A stretch of DNA of 64,000 nt from Gammaproteobacteria bacterium (lineage in GTDB: Bacteria; Pseudomonadota; Gammaproteobacteria; Steroidobacterales; Steroidobacteraceae), in the NCBI GenBank assembly GCA_027315105.1, contig DAHUYP010000076.1, positions 1 to 64,000 of the forward strand, read 5' to 3'. How positions within the stretch are numbered: the first letter of the stretch is position 1; each line of letters opens with the position of its first letter. This document shows, piece by piece, positions 17,026 through 31,582 of the stretch. A program made the translations under genes and the position numbers. The notes under the pieces were generated by a model, which was given only the letters and a program-made list of their open reading frames with translations, ran no database searches and had not been told where the DNA came from.

Positions 17026-17101
17026 GCGGGAATAGCTCAGTTGGTAGAGCGCAACCTTGCCAAGGTTGAGGTCGCGAGTTCGAGCCTCGTTTCCCGCTCC
17101 A
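17026..17101 (+). tRNA. tRNA-Gly (GCC)
   Basis: 76 bases with encoded CCA. Acceptor GCGGGAA pairs with TTCCCGC; the D arm holds AGCTCAGTTGGTAGAGC; anticodon stem CAACC/GGTTG encloses TTGCCAA, anticodon GCC at 17059-17061; the T arm contains GTTCGAG. Confidence 0.97.
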
Positions 17102-17116
17102 ATGAACAGATTGCGC

Positions 17117-17153
17117 AAGCCCTTGCGGACCGCAGGACCGCAAGGGCTTTTTT
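17117..17153 (+). terminator. Rho-independent terminator after tRNA-Gly
   Basis: A 12-base stem AAGCCCTTGCGG / CCGCAAGGGCTT around a 9-base loop, running into TTTTTT. It lies between tRNA-Gly and tRNA-Cys, so tRNA-Cys may need its own promoter or readthrough. Confidence 0.88.
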
Positions 17154-17167
17154 CGGCCATCGCGTGC

Positions 17168-17241
17168 GGCTAGGTGGCAGAGTGGTCATGCAGCGGCCTG
17201 CAAAGCCGTCTACGCCGGTTCGATTCCGACCCTAGCCTCCA
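17168..17241 (+). tRNA. tRNA-Cys (GCA)
   Basis: 74 bases with encoded CCA. Acceptor GGCTAGG pairs with CCTAGCC; anticodon loop CTGCAAA gives GCA at 17200-17202; T arm GGTTCGATTCC. A degraded copy of its 3' half occurs 877 bases downstream. Confidence 0.97.
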
Positions 17242-17443
17242 GTTGCATTTTCCGTTGTAACTGGCTGTATTTACATCACTATCCGCCGCGGATTCGTCGC
17301 GCGCGTCGTCCTCCCCGCCGACCCACGCGCTGCGCCGCATCGCGCGAAAGCGCCGATCCGGCAGCCCGCCGGCGCGGCCGAACCTTCGCGCAGGATCGCA
17401 GTCTGTTGAGAGTTCGCACAACCCCGGCTCCGAGGAAATGAAT

Positions 17444-17893
17444 GTGAAGTCGAATAGCTGCGGTGCGCGCCGTCCCGGGCGATATTCGCGCTTCGGCTCA
17501 GTCGTCGCCCTGCTGTGCGCCGTCGGTATTCTCACGGCCTGCCAGACCCAAAGGCAGATGGTGTCACAGCACGAGGACTACCTCGCAGCAGCCGGATTCA
17601 TCGTGCGACCCGCAAATACATCGGCGCGCGAGACCATGCTGGAACGATTGCCGCCGCACCGATTCGTGCGACGATCGAAGGGCGAAGACGTCTATTACGT
17701 CTACGCGGATCCGCTGGTGTGTGACTGTCTGTACGTCGGTACCCAGAAGGCCTATGACCAGTACCGGCGGGATCGGCTGGCGCGGCATCTGGCCGATGAG
17801 GAGGAACTCACCGCCGAGTCGTATTACGACTCGTCGTGGAGTTGGGCGGCGTGGGGTCCGGGATTTGCCGACGGTCCCGATTTTGGCTGGTAG
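17444..17893 (+). CDS. Small conserved lipoprotein of unknown function
   Basis: About 149 residues. A hydrophobic N-terminus ends in the lipobox GILTAC, so it is probably an outer- or inner-membrane lipoprotein. The mature part contains EDYLAAAGFIVRPANT, ERLPPHRFVRR and a striking YVYADPLVCDCLYVGTQKAY; this pattern I recognise as a widespread uncharacterised proteobacterial family. GTG at 17444 lies seven bases after GAGGA; the ATG at 17438 is nearer the ribosome site and is the alternative. The C-terminus is acidic and aromatic (SWSWAAWGPG). It occupies the 0.88-kb segment bracketed by tRNA-Cys and its 3' copy. Confidence 0.7.
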   Translation: MKSNSCGARRPGRYSRFGSVVALLCAVGILTACQTQRQMVSQHEDYLAAAGFIVRPANTSARETMLERLPPHRFVRRSKGEDVYYVYADPLVCDCLYVGTQKAYDQYRRDRLARHLADEEELTAESYYDSSWSWAAWGPGFADGPDFGW

Positions 17894-18070
17894 GCGCTGC
17901 GCGCGACCGCAACCCAGTCACACCGCGCGGCGCGTCCATAGCGCGCGGCGCGTCAGCGCGACAGCGGCGCGCGGATCTCATGCATAATTGGCGCCGGGCG
18001 GGCATATCCGCGTCAGGTGGCGAATTCGGTGGCGCAAGGTCGTGAGTCTGCAGTCGAACTGACCGTCCGG

Positions 18071-18118
18071 CGGCCCGCCAGACCGTCCATGCCGGTCCGA
18101 TTCCGGCCCTAGCCTCCA
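18071..18118 (+). pseudogene. Degenerate tRNA-Cys 3' copy
   Basis: Aligned at an offset of 877 with the intact tRNA-Cys, the 50 bases 18071-18120 match 17194-17243 at 42 positions, with the last 20 differing at one. It keeps the T arm, the CCTAGCC acceptor strand and CCA, but no 5' acceptor strand that could pair with it is adjacent. A weakly similar 5'-half-like stretch (GGTGGCGAATTCGGT) lies near 18016. It ends 8 bases before tRNA-Leu. Confidence 0.8.
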
Positions 18119-18125
18119 GTCAAGC

Positions 18126-18213
18126 GCGGACGTGGCGAAACCGGTAGACGCAGCAGACTTAAAATCTGCTTCCTTAAAAGGGAGTGTGGGTTCGAGTCCC
18201 GCCGTCCGCACCA
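18126..18213 (+). tRNA. tRNA-Leu (TAA)
   Basis: 88-base class II tRNA with encoded CCA. Acceptor GCGGACG pairs with CGTCCGC; anticodon loop CTTAAAA between GCAGA and TCTGC gives TAA; the long variable arm TTCCTTAAAAGGGAGT is typical of leucine tRNA. Its last base is one base before the ccmA start codon. Confidence 0.97.
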
Positions 18214-24967: not shown

Positions 24968-25894
24968 ATGGACAGCGGAGCTCTGGAGCGGCGGCTGCGG
25001 GCCGGCGAGTTTGTCGTCACTGCCGAGATCACGCCGCCGCTGTCGGCGGATCCGCAGGCGCTGCTCGAGCAGGCGCTGCCGTTGCGCGATCTGGCCGATG
25101 CCCTGAACGTCACCGACGGCGCGAGCGCCCGGGCGCATCTCGATGTACTGACCGCCGCGGTGATCCTGGCGCGGGCCGGTATCGAGCCGGTGATGCAGGT
25201 GACCTGTCGCGACCGCAATCGCATCGCGCTGCAGAGCATGCTGGTCGGTGCGGCGGCGCAGGGCGTGCGCAACATTCTCGTGCTCCGCGGCGATGATCCG
25301 CGCGCCGGCGATCAGCCGGAGGCGAAACCGGTATTCGACCTCGATTCCAATACGCTGCTGGCCACGGCAAGCGCGATTCGCGATCGCGGCCAGCTGCCGC
25401 ATGGGCGCACCGTCGGCGGCAGGATCGAATTCTTTCTCGGCGCCGCGGACGCGCCGATCGATCCGCCGCCCGGATGGCAGCCCGAGGGCCTCAGTCGCAA
25501 GCTCGATGCCGGCGCGCAGTTCGTGCAGACGCAGTTCTGCATGGATGCGGCGGTGGTGCGGCGCTATATCGAGCGCCTGTCCGCCCACCACCTGACCGAG
25601 CGCCTCTATATCCTGATCGGTCTGGCGCCGCTGGCGTCGGCGCGTTCGGCGCGCTGGATCCTCAATCATCTGTACGGGTCCATTATCCCCAAGCCGTTGA
25701 TCGAACGCCTGGAGGCGGCAAGCGACCAGAAGCTCGAAGGACGGCGCATCTGCGTCGAGCTGATGCAACAGATGCAGCAGATTCCAGGCGTCGCCGGCGT
25801 GCACCTGATGGCGCCGCTGAACCACGGCGCCCTGGGCGCCGTGGTCGGCGAGTATCGCGCCCGCGCGGGCGACAGGCGGCGCGCGGCCGGATGA
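24968..25894 (+). CDS. metF: Methylenetetrahydrofolate reductase family protein
   Basis: A 308-residue TIM-barrel flavoprotein. The N-terminus FVVTAEITPP, the central VMQVTCRDRNR, the GVRNILVLRGDDP strand and C-terminal GVHLMAPLNH are MetF features. Family members reduce 5,10-methylene-THF to 5-methyl-THF. It is more divergent from E. coli MetF than usual and resembles the shorter versions that lack some FAD-domain insertions. Directly follows ccmI by 28 bases. Confidence 0.85.
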   Translation: MDSGALERRLRAGEFVVTAEITPPLSADPQALLEQALPLRDLADALNVTDGASARAHLDVLTAAVILARAGIEPVMQVTCRDRNRIALQSMLVGAAAQGVRNILVLRGDDPRAGDQPEAKPVFDLDSNTLLATASAIRDRGQLPHGRTVGGRIEFFLGAADAPIDPPPGWQPEGLSRKLDAGAQFVQTQFCMDAAVVRRYIERLSAHHLTERLYILIGLAPLASARSARWILNHLYGSIIPKPLIERLEAASDQKLEGRRICVELMQQMQQIPGVAGVHLMAPLNHGALGAVVGEYRARAGDRRRAAG

Positions 25895-25899
25895 GGCAG

Positions 25900-26349
25900 T
25901 CAGTTCAGGCACACCACCAGGCGCGCATGGTAGGTACGCCATTCGATCGGGATCACGATGGCGCGCGTGTTGAGCGGATATTCCATGACGGCGTTGCGTC
26001 CATGCACCACCGACGGCACCGAGATGCTGAACTGCCGGCCGAAATCGCGGCGCGCATTGCCCGAGAGCGTATTGGCGATCTCGCCGACCAGGTCGCAGAG
26101 GTTGTCGTGGCTCATGTCGGTCTCCTGCATGCGCATGAGCATCACGCACAGCATGCTCTTTGGAGCGGTGAAGAACACCACCCCGTCGCGCTTGCCGCTG
26201 ATCCTGATCATGCCGGTGTAGTCGGAGACCTCGGGGCTGCGGCCGAGCGCCAGGTAGGGCGTGCCGCACTCGGCGACCTGCTGCACCGTGGTGTCGAAAT
26301 AGTGCAGCACGCCGTTCACGAACACGCCGATTTCGGATTCAGGGCTCAC
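25900..26349 (-). CDS. CheX-like chemotaxis phosphatase domain protein
   Basis: A 149-residue cytosolic protein. The core VGEIANTLSGNARRDFG carries the E-xx-N pattern that CheC/CheX phosphatases use to dephosphorylate CheY, and GMIRISGKRDGVVFF matches the CheX beta sheet. It is the last gene of a minus-strand operon with a CheY-like regulator and a CheA-like kinase, so it probably resets that regulator (inference). Confidence 0.85.
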   Translation of the reverse strand: MSPESEIGVFVNGVLHYFDTTVQQVAECGTPYLALGRSPEVSDYTGMIRISGKRDGVVFFTAPKSMLCVMLMRMQETDMSHDNLCDLVGEIANTLSGNARRDFGRQFSISVPSVVHGRNAVMEYPLNTRAIVIPIEWRTYHARLVVCLN

Positions 26350-26366
26350 GGGCTGCGCTCGGGGTC

Positions 26367-26744
26367 CTAGTCTTCGATCAGCTTGCGCAGCGCATCGTTG
26401 AGCTGGCGGTCGGTGAACGGCTTGCAGAGAAAGCCGCTGGCGCCGCGCTCGATCGCATCGATGGCGGTGAGCTTGTCGGCCAGCGCCGAGATCACCAGGA
26501 TGCGCACCTCCGGGTCACGCTGTACCAGCGCCGCCACGCACTCGCTGCCGTCCATCTCCGGCATCGTCAAGTCCATGGTGACGATCGTCGGCCGCAGCTG
26601 CTGTTGCATCTCGAGAGCTTCGATGCCGTTGCGCGCCGCGCCGATGAATTCGACGTTGGGCAGATCCTGAACGCGTTCGATGCGCCGGCGAATCACATTC
26701 GAATCGTCCACGACCATGAGGCGATGTGCCAAGACCTGGTTCAT
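26367..26744 (-). CDS. Single-domain response regulator, CheY-like
   Basis: A 125-residue receiver: acidic pair in MVVDDSN, phosphoryl Asp in VTMDLTMPEMDG, Ser in LVISALAD, and Lys in GFLCKPF. No output domain. It lies 40 bases after the kinase gene and 17 bases before the CheX gene, consistent with phosphorylation by the one and dephosphorylation by the other. The ATG at 26744 avoids an implausible low-complexity extension. Confidence 0.93.
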   Translation of the reverse strand: MNQVLAHRLMVVDDSNVIRRRIERVQDLPNVEFIGAARNGIEALEMQQQLRPTIVTMDLTMPEMDGSECVAALVQRDPEVRILVISALADKLTAIDAIERGASGFLCKPFTDRQLNDALRKLIED

Positions 26745-26784
26745 GACTGGTTCCGGAGCCGCGGCGCCTGCGGTGTGCGGGCGC

Positions 26785-29013
26785 TCAAGCGGCCGACGGC
26801 GCGGCGGCCGAGGCGGTCGCGAGCTTCGGCAGCAGCACCTTGAACCGCGTGTACTGGCCGGCCACCGTGGACACGCCGACCTTGCCGCCGTGCTCGCGCA
26901 CCAGGCTGCCGACTGCATCCAGGCCCACGCCGCGGCCCGCGTGTTCCGAGACCTGGTCGACGGTGGAGAAGCCGGGTTGGAATATGAGGCGGTAGACCGT
27001 CGCACGATCGAGCGCCATCGCCTGCTGCGGGCGCAGCAGTCCTTGCCGCAGGGCCTTGTCCATGATCTGCTCGTAGCTCAAGCCGCGACCGTCGTCCTCG
27101 ATCGTGAGCAGATAGTCCTCCGGACTGTCGGTCGCGAAGCTGATCTGCACCGTGCCTTCCGCGCTCTTGCCGTGCTGCGCCCGCAGCTGCGGCGACTCGA
27201 TGCCGTGCACGACGGCGTTGCGGATCATTTGAATGCAGATGTCCTTCACCGCTGCGCTGTAGCGCGCCGGCACGTGTTCGAGTCCGCGCGCCACGAGCCG
27301 CACGGCGCGGCCCTGGGCGCGGGCGACTTCCTGCGCCAGGGGGCGCAACAACTCCAGTATCGGTGCCGATGCCGGTGCCGATGCGGCGGCGGGCGCAGGT
27401 GTGGGTGCGGCGGGCGGCGGCTCGAGCGCCACCGGCTCGTTGATCACCGTGGTATCGCGCTGCTCATCGGCGTGCGCCTCGGACGGGGACTTCGCACCCT
27501 GGAGGCGAAACGATGCGACACGCTCCTGCATGGACTGGATCGTGGCGACGTGCGTCATGAGCTCATCGAGCCGCACCACCAGCGGCAGGAAGTCGTTGCC
27601 GCTGAGCGCGGCCTTGCCGCGCAGCGCCGACAGCGCATCCTCGATGGCATGAATGCGCTCGACGAAGCTGCGCAGCGCCAGCGCCGCGGCTTCGCCTTTG
27701 ATCGCGTGCAGCTCGCGGAATACCCCGTTGAGCTTCTTCTTCAGGTCCTGCTGTTCGATGCCAGGGGCCGTGAGCATGGCGTTGCTCTTGCGGAACGCGA
27801 CGTCGGCGGTGGCCAGAAACGATTGTAGCTGGTTCGGATCGACCCGCAGCAGCTGCAGCAGCAGCGAAGCCTGCGAATCGTTGTCGGCCTTCGCGTGCTC
27901 GAGCTCGCGCGCCAGCAGCACGCGGTCGGTGACGTCCGCGACCACGCCGAGCAGGTAATCGGCCGACGCCTCGTCGCCGCGTACGCGGCGGAACGAGAAG
28001 GCCAGGTAGCGCGTATCGGTGCCGCCGTGGCTATTGGGGAACGAGACCTCGATCTGGCTCAGAGGATTGACCGACTCGATCAGCTCCTCGTGCACCTTGT
28101 CCTTCCACAACAGACCGAGGAACTTGAGCGCCGCGGTCATGGTCTTCTGATCGACCAGCGGCTCGAGCAGCTGCTCGAAGCTCAGGCCGGCGGTCGCCGG
28201 CAGCCGCAGCAGCTGCGTCAACGAGGCCGAACAGGTCTCGCCCAGGCGCATGTCGCGACCGACGAGGAACAGCCCCTCGCGCACGGTGCCGAGAATATTG
28301 GCGACCTGCCGCTGGGCGCTGGCCGCGCTCGCCGCCGACAGGCGCGCGCGCCAGGCGTAATAGAGCATCATGCCCAGCAGCAGCGCGGCCACGCCCGTAC
28401 CACCCAGCAGAATGCTGCGCAGGCTGCGGCCGTTGTCGGCCACGTTGGCGCGCAGCATGGCGCAGAGCTGACCGAGCTTGTCGCCCATGATCTGCAGATT
28501 CTGCGATTGTGCCGCGAGCATGCTGTCGACCGCGGCCTTCATCTGCTTGCCTGAGGCCGTGAGCTCGGAGCCCGAGTTGGTGTCCAGATACAGCTCGGCG
28601 CTGCGCTTCTTGTTGAGCGCCTCGAGGCCGCGATCCAGGCTCTGCCAGCGGTTCAGCGCGACTGCCAGGGGCCCGGCCACGTCCGGCTGATCGGCCAGCC
28701 GGGCGCCGCGCAGCTGCTGCTCTATTAGCGGGAAGGCTTCGTTGCTGCTCTCGCGGATGGCCGCGATGTTGCGCAGCGGGTCGCCGACGTAGGTCGTGGT
28801 CTCGAGGCCGCGTTGCAGCAGCGTCAGTTCCGAGCGCACGATCGCCGGTCTCGAGCTCAACTCCGAGGCCAGCTGCAGCGCCGAGGATGCCGACTGCAAT
28901 TCGTCGGCGCGGCGCATGCCGAGCATCAGCAGCACGGTGAGCGCGGCCGCGAACAGAATGGTGGCGGCAAACTGCAGCCACTGGCCGGAAATCGCGGACG
29001 AGCGACGAGCCAT
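26785..29013 (-). CDS. Membrane-anchored CheA-like histidine kinase with sensor region and Hpt domain
   Basis: A 742-residue protein. Order: TM1 (about 13-32), a periplasmic helical sensor (33-200), TM2 (201-220), a PAS-like domain (235-365), a coiled linker, an Hpt domain with phospho-acceptor His436 in ELHAIKGEA, a Pro/Ala linker (527-552), then a HATPase domain with N-box IRNAVVHGIE (Asn599), DDGRG (640-644) and GRGVGLD (693-699). It uses a CheA-like transferred His yet lacks the P2, dimerisation and CheW-type domains of true CheA. Part of the tonB-like/kinase/CheY/CheX operon. Confidence 0.88.
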   Translation of the reverse strand: MARRSSAISGQWLQFAATILFAAALTVLLMLGMRRADELQSASSALQLASELSSRPAIVRSELTLLQRGLETTTYVGDPLRNIAAIRESSNEAFPLIEQQLRGARLADQPDVAGPLAVALNRWQSLDRGLEALNKKRSAELYLDTNSGSELTASGKQMKAAVDSMLAAQSQNLQIMGDKLGQLCAMLRANVADNGRSLRSILLGGTGVAALLLGMMLYYAWRARLSAASAASAQRQVANILGTVREGLFLVGRDMRLGETCSASLTQLLRLPATAGLSFEQLLEPLVDQKTMTAALKFLGLLWKDKVHEELIESVNPLSQIEVSFPNSHGGTDTRYLAFSFRRVRGDEASADYLLGVVADVTDRVLLARELEHAKADNDSQASLLLQLLRVDPNQLQSFLATADVAFRKSNAMLTAPGIEQQDLKKKLNGVFRELHAIKGEAAALALRSFVERIHAIEDALSALRGKAALSGNDFLPLVVRLDELMTHVATIQSMQERVASFRLQGAKSPSEAHADEQRDTTVINEPVALEPPPAAPTPAPAAASAPASAPILELLRPLAQEVARAQGRAVRLVARGLEHVPARYSAAVKDICIQMIRNAVVHGIESPQLRAQHGKSAEGTVQISFATDSPEDYLLTIEDDGRGLSYEQIMDKALRQGLLRPQQAMALDRATVYRLIFQPGFSTVDQVSEHAGRGVGLDAVGSLVREHGGKVGVSTVAGQYTRFKVLLPKLATASAAAPSAA

Positions 29014-29040
29014 GCGGGATGTTTCCTCGGTGAGTTTCGG

Positions 29041-30837
29041 TTAACCGGGCTTGAACGTCAGGCGGATGCGCGCGCGCCGCGACTGCTTATGAATCAGGCC
29101 GCTGCTGTCGTAGCGGGCGTGCATGACCGCGGTGATGGCCGCACGATCGAATACGCCCGTCGGCTGCGCCTCGACCACGGTCGGACTACTGGGAAGGCCG
29201 TCCGCGTGCAAGGTGAATTCGATCACCACGTAGCCCTCGATCCTGGAACCGGCTGCTGCTGCAGGATAGGTGACGTTGATCGGGCTCAGCGGCCGTGCGG
29301 CAATGTAGCTCGCAGAGCTGCTGCCGGTCGCCTCCGGCGTCACGGGGTCGCTGCCGCCGCTCGGTGCGCTGCCGGCGGAAGGCGCGGATGGCGCCGTGCG
29401 GGCCGCAGCCGAACGCTGGGCGGCCAGGTCGACCTGCGCCTGCAGCGCGCGCCTGGCCTCCGCGAGGTCCGCCGTCGGGTTGCTGTCGGCGGCAGCAGCG
29501 AGGTAGCGCTGTGCCAGGTCGAATTGATCCTTGCGCGTGGCTTCCTGCGCCCGCGCCAGCAGGGCCGCCTGCAGGTCGCGCTGCGCCTCGAGCGTCAGCG
29601 GGTGGTTGCGGCCAATGTTGCGCATCGCCTGCAGGCGAGCGCGCGCGCTGTCGGCGCCCGTATCGAGCAGCGCGCCGGCATCGATGGCGGCCTTGACGTC
29701 GTTGAGCATCGAACCCAGCTGCTGGTCGAGCTTCCTGGCGTCGATGGCGCGACGCAGTTCGGCCATGCTATTGCGATCGGCACCGGCGGCGCTCATTTGC
29801 GCCAGGGTCTGCTCGGCGGCGGCCAGGTCGCCGGCGGCGATGCTTTCCTGGGCTTTCGCGGCCAGCCACTTGGGCCGCGCGGCGGCGACGCTGGCCTCGA
29901 CGTCGTGCAACGCCTCGGGCTCGACACCGGCGCTCTTGAAGTAACCGATCAGGCGCGTCGCATCGTCGAGCTTGCCGCTTGCCAGATCGCTCTGGATGCG
30001 CGCCTTGCCGACCGCAAGCAGGCGCCGCACGCCGTCCAGCGCCTCCTCGTTGGCGGGCTCCTGGCGAAGCACCTGTATGTACAGCTCGAGTGCGCTGTCG
30101 CCGCGGCCCTCGCCATCGGCGCGCGGCAGCAGCTTCTGATCGTGAAAGGCGATGCGCGCGGAGGACAGCAGCTCGAACACCGACGCCGGCGCAACCACGG
30201 TCCGATTGTCGTTGGCGGCCGGATCGACATCCAGGCCGCTCAAGGGATTGTAGGCGGACGCGGGCGCGAGCGACCAGAGCAGTCCGGCGCATGCGATGCC
30301 GAGGACCGCGAACACGATGGCCAGCAGCAGCGAGGACGCGGATGGCGGGGCGTTCGAGTCGCCGGCGCCAGCGCCAGGCGACGCGGGTCGCGTGGCGCCG
30401 GCCACGCCATCATCTGCGTGGGCCGCGAGCCGGTTCTCGGCGATGGCCAGCAGGGCCAGCAGCCGCGCGCTGCCGAGATCGTCACGCCCGATGGTGGCGA
30501 CGACTGCGCCATGCGATACCGCCGAGGTCCATTCCTCGGAGGTCTTCGTGACGACTATGATTTCGGCGCCCGGGAACTGCCGCTGCAGCCGCGTCACGGC
30601 GGCGTGCGCATCCGGCAGCGCGAGCGCATCGACGATGGCGATCCAGCGCGTGGCGTCGGTCGCGGCGGCAATGGCATCGGGATGATCCACCGTGCGCGTG
30701 CGATAGCGGTCGCCCAGCACCGGCCCGAGCTCGATCAAGAAGCCGTCGTCGCCGGAGACGATAATCGCCTCGGTCCGTCGCGTGCGGACGGTCCTGGTAT
30801 CGGCGGGATGCATCCTCTCTTGCGCTAGTGGCTTCAT
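29041..30837 (-). CDS. TonB-like protein with N-terminal receiver-like domain
   Basis: A 598-residue protein. Residues 20-135 resemble a response-regulator receiver (acidic SGDDG, then IAIVDAL with a possible Asp70, then IIVVTKTS) but lack the usual Lys, so it may be degenerate. A membrane helix lies at about 168-190, then long periplasmic TPR-like helices (about 230-480) and a C-terminal TonB domain (about 512-598; YPAAAAGSRIEGYVVIEF, QPTGVFDRAAITAV, RIRLTF). It starts at 30837 with AAGGAA upstream. It leads the CheA-like operon, suggesting envelope-linked sensing. Confidence 0.82.
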   Translation of the reverse strand: MKPLAQERMHPADTRTVRTRRTEAIIVSGDDGFLIELGPVLGDRYRTRTVDHPDAIAAATDATRWIAIVDALALPDAHAAVTRLQRQFPGAEIIVVTKTSEEWTSAVSHGAVVATIGRDDLGSARLLALLAIAENRLAAHADDGVAGATRPASPGAGAGDSNAPPSASSLLLAIVFAVLGIACAGLLWSLAPASAYNPLSGLDVDPAANDNRTVVAPASVFELLSSARIAFHDQKLLPRADGEGRGDSALELYIQVLRQEPANEEALDGVRRLLAVGKARIQSDLASGKLDDATRLIGYFKSAGVEPEALHDVEASVAAARPKWLAAKAQESIAAGDLAAAEQTLAQMSAAGADRNSMAELRRAIDARKLDQQLGSMLNDVKAAIDAGALLDTGADSARARLQAMRNIGRNHPLTLEAQRDLQAALLARAQEATRKDQFDLAQRYLAAAADSNPTADLAEARRALQAQVDLAAQRSAAARTAPSAPSAGSAPSGGSDPVTPEATGSSSASYIAARPLSPINVTYPAAAAGSRIEGYVVIEFTLHADGLPSSPTVVEAQPTGVFDRAAITAVMHARYDSSGLIHKQSRRARIRLTFKPG

Positions 30838-31045
30838 CGGCCGTTCCTTCAGCACTTGCACCGGTTGCGAGCGTGAACTGTGGTGCGTTGCGCCGGCACA
30901 GGCAGCGCGTCGGTTCACAAATTGACGCGGCCGATTCCACGGCCGAACGACTGGGACCGAGGACTGAGGCGCAGGTCACAGAATTGCAGCGCTGAATGGG
31001 CAGCCTCATAATCGTCGTCCCAGGAACAGGCGAGGTACCGCGACC

Positions 31046-31582
31046 ATGAAACGGCTGCTGCCCATGTTGTTGCTGTGCTGCTGCGCCGGTGCCTCGATGG
31101 CGGCGCTGCAGCCGGGGGCCAAGGCTCCGGAATTCACGACCCAGGCGTCGCTCGCGGGCAAGGCATTTCAGTTCTCGCTGGCCGAGGCCCTCAAAAAGGG
31201 CCCGGTCGTGCTGTACTTCTACCCGGCCGCATTTACGCCGGGATGTACGGCGGAGGCGCACGATTTCGCAGTTGCGACCGCCGACTTTCAGGCCCTCGGC
31301 GCAACGGTGATCGGTGTCTCCCACGACGACGTCAACACGCTCAACAGATTTTCGGTCAGCGAGTGCCGCAACAAGTTCGCCGTGGCTTCCGACCCGGACC
31401 AGCACATCATGAAATCCTATGATGCCGTGCTGGCGATGAATCCCAAACTGGCGGACCGCACCTCGTATGTGATCTCTCCCGAGGGCAAGATCATCTACAG
31501 CTACTCGGCTCTGAACCCGGACAAGCATGTTGCCAACACGCTGGCCGCGGTAAAGCGGTGGGTTGCCGAACATCCGCACTGA
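31046..31582 (+). CDS. Secreted peroxiredoxin (AhpC/TSA, BCP/PrxQ type)
   Basis: A 178-residue protein with a signal peptide (LLPMLLLCCCAGASMAAL). The catalytic motif is FYPAAFTPGCTAEAHDF, with peroxidatic Cys in the PxxxTxxC context; a second Cys lies in SECRNKF. Together these indicate a 2-Cys BCP/PrxQ-like thiol peroxidase acting on peroxides in the periplasm. It sits 5 bases upstream of a TraB-family gene and is divergent from the signalling operon. Confidence 0.9.
   Translation: MKRLLPMLLLCCCAGASMAALQPGAKAPEFTTQASLAGKAFQFSLAEALKKGPVVLYFYPAAFTPGCTAEAHDFAVATADFQALGATVIGVSHDDVNTLNRFSVSECRNKFAVASDPDQHIMKSYDAVLAMNPKLADRTSYVISPEGKIIYSYSALNPDKHVANTLAAVKRWVAEHPH

Follow-up and report, generated by a model that had tools for sequence, protein, structure and literature searches.

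Four adjacent genes on the minus strand of a 64,000-nucleotide stretch of DNA from a gammaproteobacterium of the Steroidobacteraceae (hereafter the window) encode chemotaxis-type phosphorelay parts together with a protein that joins a receiver fold across the membrane to a TonB-type periplasmic end. The association is conserved among related genomes in two gene orders, and the set probably links the cell interior to the envelope. We give an even chance to the proposal that the four genes make up a single signalling system, in which a CheA-derived phosphorelay reset by CheX would be read through docking of a pseudo-receiver, with a TPR-TonB rod acting on a partner in the envelope. A first-pass annotation, made from the sequence alone, had proposed that the genes form one system, and the survey of their linkage within the window's family supports that idea.

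Organization of the four genes

The four open reading frames occupy 30837 to 25900 on the minus strand, and Pfam and an ORF check of the window found them where the first-pass annotation had placed them. Read along that strand they encode a receiver-TM-TPR-TonB_C fusion protein (29041-30837; 598 aa from the ATG at 30837), a membrane histidine kinase (26785-29013; 742 aa), a single-domain CheY-like response regulator (26367-26744; 125 aa) and a CheX-type phosphatase (25900-26349; 149 aa). The frame of the fusion gene stays open to a GTG at 30918, and the ATG is its probable start; the orthologue in L024 starts there too. The gaps had been put at 17 to 40 bases, and measure 27 (29014-29040), 40 (26745-26784) and 17 bases (26350-26366).

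Both flanking genes are on the plus strand, and so oriented opposite to the set. They are an AhpC/TSA gene (31046-31582) and a methylenetetrahydrofolate reductase-like gene (24968-25894; product of 308 aa), the latter converging on the operon. A promoter and terminator scan gave no promoter-like and one terminator-like site, which is not above the result for shuffled sequences. The statement that no motor or receptor genes lie near is borne out as far as the five CheW and six MotA/ExbB matches in the genome are concerned, all of which are on other contigs. Elsewhere in the window, genes for tRNA-Gly, tRNA-Cys and tRNA-Leu lie on the plus strand at 17026-18213.

A membrane kinase with CheA-type catalytic parts

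The kinase was analysed by Pfam, PDB profile search, an AF2 model and Foldseek. Pfam detects HATPase_c (9.7e-14) and Hpt (4.6e-6), and Hpt is detected in 22/22 kinase members. The histidine of the Hpt domain is H436, as first annotated; it is invariant in the 22 aligned family kinases, and in 29/29 once those from outside the family are added. The ATPase residues N599, D640-D641-G642 and G693-R694-G695 are also invariant in 22/22 aligned family kinases. A hydropathy script calls the two expected transmembrane (TM) segments, around a helical periplasmic part. In the model, long helices surround that part; next come a PAS-like region at 247-360 and an Hpt bundle at 393-507, and a disordered linker leads on to the ATPase domain. 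The PAS-like assignment made earlier rests on the strands and helices at 247-360 of the model; the Pfam family PAS_4 is seen weakly, in 1 of the 22 members.

The best solved relatives in the PDB profile search are CheA P4 domains, from 4.1e-56, in keeping with the earlier CheA-like label, while Hpt domains (including that of CheA) match more weakly. Foldseek of the kinase model also leads to CheA P4. For the periplasmic part, the profile search gives a chain of a chemotaxis transducer (6gcv) at 1.7e-4. Because a designed helical protein was also matched, at 8.8e-4, this is only a hint of a possible likeness to chemotaxis transducers.

P2, dimerisation and CheW domains had been described as missing, and the window kinase indeed gives no Pfam match to P2, H-kinase_dim or CheW up to E = 1. 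The P3 dimerisation domain was found neither by Pfam, in the window kinase and the 22 members, nor in the model. HMMER is described as often missing P3 in PMC10782961; the absence of P3 here is read from Pfam, from where the PDB profile matches start and from the AF2 model. Chains comprising CheA P3 and P4 match the kinase only from about residue 61-65, past P3, and about 36 profile positions lie between the Hpt match and the P4 match. Before the ATPase strands the model is disordered at 509-547 and has a single helix at 552-566, with no P3 hairpin. By Pfam and in the model there is no C-terminal CheW-like domain either, the kinase terminating directly after the ATPase domain.

In the survey of Berry et al. 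2023 (PMC10782961) all CheA proteins examined are reported to have four core domains, with P2 alone often missing. Since two of the core domains, P3 and the CheW-like domain, were not found, we reject the possibility that the kinase is a true CheA and do not class it as one. Judged from the profile matches and the model, it appears to resemble CheA in its catalytic parts, sharing the Hpt phospho-acceptor and the CheA-type P4 ATPase. It differs in sitting in the membrane and in having a periplasmic part and a PAS-like region of its own.

The single receiver and the CheX-type protein

Hpt kinases hand phosphate on to CheY-like receivers, which CheX then dephosphorylates. The single receiver identified in the first reading matches Response_reg at 2.2e-23 and carries the full set of CheY-like active-site residues, i.e. 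the acid pair D13 and D14, the Asp D58, the Ser/Thr position S86 and the Lys K108, all of them invariant in 20/20 aligned sequences. The adjoining gene was correctly recognized as CheX-like. Its product matches Pfam CheX at 1.6e-19 and CheX/CheC-type chains in the PDB from 5.9e-14, and has the ExxN motif (E90xxN93); D86, E90, N93 and P112 are invariant in 20/20. It is therefore a predicted phosphatase, sharing its Pfam family and the conserved D, E, N and P residues with the CheX/CheC phosphatases, but it falls in a distinct subfamily. CheX is matched at 1e-10 in 26 of 369 genomes of the class, of which 12 score >95 bits and the other 14 <60 bits.

A receiver fold joined to a TonB-type end

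The AF2 model of the fusion protein (mean pLDDT 83.6) comprises a receiver (22-146), a TM helix (168-186), helices at 220-481 and TonB_C at about 511-598. This agrees with the TM segment, TPR-like helices and TonB domain originally described, and the hydropathy script likewise calls one TM segment. Pfam detects TonB_C at 4.1e-12, and in 18/18 aligned orthologues. Five Foldseek matches of the model lie below 0.001, all of them TonB C-terminal domains, and the C-terminal domain matches that of E. coli TonB. They are followed by KaiA (0.0049), CpaE (0.0065), BamD (0.016) and then many receivers. KaiA and CpaE, which we take to hold pseudo-receivers, resemble the fusion protein in having a receiver fold without the full phosphorylation site. 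The difference is that in the window protein this fold is joined via a TM helix to a periplasmic TonB-type end.

The receiver-like N-terminus claimed in the annotation is upheld, though unseen by Pfam, which detects no receiver in the window protein and one in 1 of the 18 orthologues (E 0.0025, below the curated cut-off). The model shows a receiver fold. Residues 22-146 form five alternating strands and five helices, and VIA-align matches residues 20-149 to receivers with Z reaching 16.8 (129 residues, rmsd 2.2, 13% identity). In small sets of translated loci, the single receivers of the kinase-receiver-CheX trio are also picked up by a profile of the N-terminal domain (1.2e-5 to 5.8e-4). At the end of strand 3 stands the acceptor Asp, D70 (D97 if numbering begins at the GTG), which is invariant in 25/25 sequences. 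The places of the acid pair, as set by the model strands, are taken by Ser28-Gly29 in the window protein and hold Asp in none of the 25; the first is Ser or Thr in 24 sequences, and the second is Glu in one. An Asp stands one position beyond in 19/25, and might stand in for the acid pair. The Lys after strand 5 is present in 7/25 and absent from the window protein. Given that the acid pair and mostly the Lys have been lost, the N-terminus is probably a pseudo-receiver. It may be phosphorylated weakly or in an unusual manner, and phosphotransfer to so atypical a receiver is doubtful.

Classical E. coli TonB needs a His in its N-terminal TM segment that contacts ExbB. There is no His in the TM segment of any of the 24 fusion sequences in which one is called (19-residue window; none was called in L036), and no ExbB-type gene on the window's contig. 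We therefore do not favour a classical TonB energiser. The fusion shares the C-terminal domain fold with TonB energy transducers, but a cytoplasmic receiver and a TPR-like periplasmic middle part set it apart from them and, with the missing His, weaken the case for a TonB driven by the proton-motive force. The term envelope energiser used in the first-pass annotation is thus not sustained.

Linkage of the four genes within the family

A sample of 60 genomes of the window's family was drawn evenly from a larger group. The CheX profile matches 30 of them at 1e-22, the kinase profile 35 at 1e-30, and the fusion profile 41 at 1e-15 with paralogues and TonB ends included. All 30 CheX-bearing genomes fall within the 35 kinase-positive ones. 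The five without this CheX (G026, G027, G029, G037 and G052) have partial or ATPase-only kinase matches; in G026 a fusion gene adjoins the partial kinase gene.

The fusion gene, or the readable part of it, lies alongside the trio in 24 of the 30 CheX-bearing genomes. Both receiver and TonB_C are present in 20 of these; in three (G014, G033 and G006) the contig breaks off so that just the TonB_C end can be read, and in one (G028) the receiver is there with no TonB_C found. It is upstream of the kinase gene in 19/24, with one gene, itself a kinase gene, in between in G002, and downstream of CheX in 5/24 (G003, G028 and G044, which are of one genus, G016 and G011). The linkage in G004 was judged from profile-match coordinates alone. 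In the remaining six genomes (G001, G007, G039, G045, G048 and G059) the contig ends upstream, and the downstream side is in view and has no fusion gene; in G048 a fusion gene lies at the end of a different contig. In G005 the receiver gene is missing from its place between kinase and CheX. In G028 the gene downstream of CheX (L034:9250-10428) is fusion-like and has a receiver part, with no TonB_C found in the stretch. A scan of genome contigs gave three loci, two of them from one assembly.

The linkage of the fusion gene to the trio therefore holds in two gene orders. Failure of the genes to co-occur in other genomes had been named beforehand as a result that would weaken the idea of a system; the fusion is with the trio in 24/24 readable family genomes, and chance neighbourhood is rejected on the same survey.

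The distances of the fusion, kinase, receiver and CheX proteins correlate between proteins with r = 0.67-0.94, and for each pair 0/999 permutations were as high (14 to 21 loci per pair, L043 left out), although shared descent alone can give such a correlation. The strongest between-protein correlation, r = 0.94 over 17 loci, is that of the periplasmic part of the kinase with the fusion. The alignments, with the window's proteins counted among the members, comprise 22/24 kinases (A1), 18/21 fusions (A2), 20/23 CheX proteins (A3) and 20/22 receivers (A4), the members left out being partial or near-duplicate; alignment A5 was made without L041, L114, L115, L118 and L127.

The trio outside the family

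The kinase profile is matched at 1e-70 in at least 12 of the 369 class genomes, the best two candidates per genome being scored. These are the same 12 genomes that hold the high-scoring CheX. Two of them (the window's own genome and G003) belong to the window's family, leaving 10 outside. In all 12 loci from these 10 genomes (L089-L100, 7 to 17 kb) kinase, receiver and CheX genes adjoin, and the TonB end is absent from all 12. G201 has three trio loci and G144 has two trios in tandem; the kinase in L089 reads as two overlapping frames. The trio is thus a sporadic module in the class, with the link to TonB seen only in the family. Since it occurs without the fusion, the core does not need TonB. 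In a survey of the phylum (398 genomes) only two pass 1e-22, namely G144 and the genome of the window itself; both belong to the class, and the survey thus shows nothing beyond it.

A target gene shared between loci was not found next to the set. Among eight same-strand neighbours of the outside-family trios there is no shared target; they encode a multicopper oxidase, a nitroreductase, an ammonium transporter, a penicillin amidase, a hexapeptide protein, two proteins without a Pfam match and one receiver-Ser/Thr kinase. The stretch L097:2846-11431 has two kinase-receiver-CheX trios in tandem, an extra CheX gene and genes for two proteins without a Pfam match (312 and 291 aa).

A proposed mechanism and its alternatives

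The domains, the conserved catalytic residues, the topology given by hydropathy and models, and the conserved linkage suggest the following scheme. The helical periplasmic part of the kinase and its PAS-like domain would sense a state of the envelope. The CheA-type ATPase domain would phosphorylate the kinase's own Hpt domain at His436, from which the phosphate would pass to the CheY-like receiver, to be stripped from it again by CheX. The fusion would be the envelope partner. Its cytoplasmic pseudo-receiver would dock, reading either the kinase or the CheY-like protein, and docking would alter the periplasmic TPR-like rod and the TonB-type end. Rod and end would in turn bind a partner in the outer membrane, the peptidoglycan or a secretion machine. 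We infer the direction, inside to outside, along with the ligand and the target, the phosphotransfer and the docking. The invariance of the active-site residues of kinase, receiver and CheX in the aligned members counts for the scheme, as do the linkage, the receiver fold, the TonB_C match and the distance correlations; the match to 6gcv and the receiver-Ser/Thr kinase genes attached to some trios and paralogues point to it weakly. Counted against it are the trios without a fusion outside the family, the missing receiver in G005 and missing TonB_C in G028, a kinase without a known dimerisation domain, the six genomes that are unreadable upstream and have no downstream fusion, and the 5 of 35 kinase-positive genomes without this CheX.

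The signal might instead run from outside to inside, with the fusion as an accessory of the sensor. Its periplasmic TPR and TonB-type end would then monitor the cell wall or outer membrane, and the pseudo-receiver, as a competitor of the CheY-like protein for the kinase, would set kinase output. The same linkage data apply here, a degenerate receiver is what a competitor should have, and the highest distance correlation pairs the fusion with the kinase's periplasmic part. However, the kinase has a periplasmic part of its own, sequences that evolve fast may show higher correlations for unrelated reasons, and the kinase outside the family has no fusion partner beside it. We regard this reading as rather unlikely. 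It is improbable that the trio is an accessory chemotaxis branch, with a flagellar or pilus motor as the target of its CheY-like protein and the fusion gene as a mere neighbour. The five CheW matches in the genome (contigs C43, C47 and C85), two of which lie in proteins that also match the ATPase part of the kinase, speak for such a branch, but the kinase lacks a CheW domain and has sensor parts of its own, and the fusion accompanies the trio in two gene orders. Least probable of all is the idea of the first-pass annotation that the fusion works as a genuine TonB energy transducer, with phosphorylation of its receiver switching its transport work, for while TonB_C and the acceptor Asp are conserved throughout the aligned sequences and MotA/ExbB-type genes exist elsewhere in the genome, the TM segment has no His, the contig no ExbB-type gene, and the receiver has lost its acid pair and mostly its Lys.

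The set presents Hpt kinase, CheY and CheX, all parts of chemotaxis type, as components of a membrane sensor that lacks a CheW domain, and an effector layout with a receiver fold joined across the membrane to a TonB-type periplasmic end. If signalling from the interior to the envelope is correct, the direct target of a CheY-like circuit would here be the envelope, and neither a motor nor transcription. A literature search, with most subscription papers outside its coverage, found nothing like this four-gene set, and the predicted combination of a phosphorelay of chemotaxis parts with this effector layout was not met there. The proposal can be tested on the conserved set and on the variants of it that occur in nature.

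Paralogous receiver-TonB genes and receiver-Ser/Thr kinases

The analysis also covered eleven loci that carry paralogues of the receiver-TonB gene (L111-L118, L121, L122 and L124). The paralogue is near the type II secretion genes gspA and gspB in five (L111, L112, L117, L121 and L122), a likeness to the GspA/GspB region; the other six have no gsp gene, and the window operon differs in having none beside it. L122 is in the window's own genome (G000:C79, 3074-8459), and its contig ends inside the paralogous gene. The next gene after the paralogue encodes a receiver-Ser/Thr kinase in 4/11 loci (L111, L112, L117 and L121; Pfam was run on three). In L111 and L112 there follows a further kinase gene matching the Hpt-ATPase part of the profile, in which Pfam sees only HATPase_c.

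Receiver-Ser/Thr kinase genes also occur with the trio. One lies directly after it in 1 of the 12 outside-family loci (L092:10113-11357), its receiver looking complete by eye, and in one of the 20 family loci (L040:3576-4877) such a gene separates kinase from fusion. We consider it possible, though on balance doubtful, that the four genes are a family-specific inside-out switch, in which the CheX-reset phosphorelay would drive the pseudo-receiver-TPR-TonB rod on a machine of the outer membrane, wall or secretion, the paralogous set adding a receiver-Ser/Thr kinase. Genes for such kinases are also found without either partner nearby (L151, L152 and L155), so that a network common to receiver-fused effectors counts as a lead and not as a result. 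In G144 the stretch L155:6507-9329 has a tandem pair of genes that match the receiver-Ser/Thr kinase profile.
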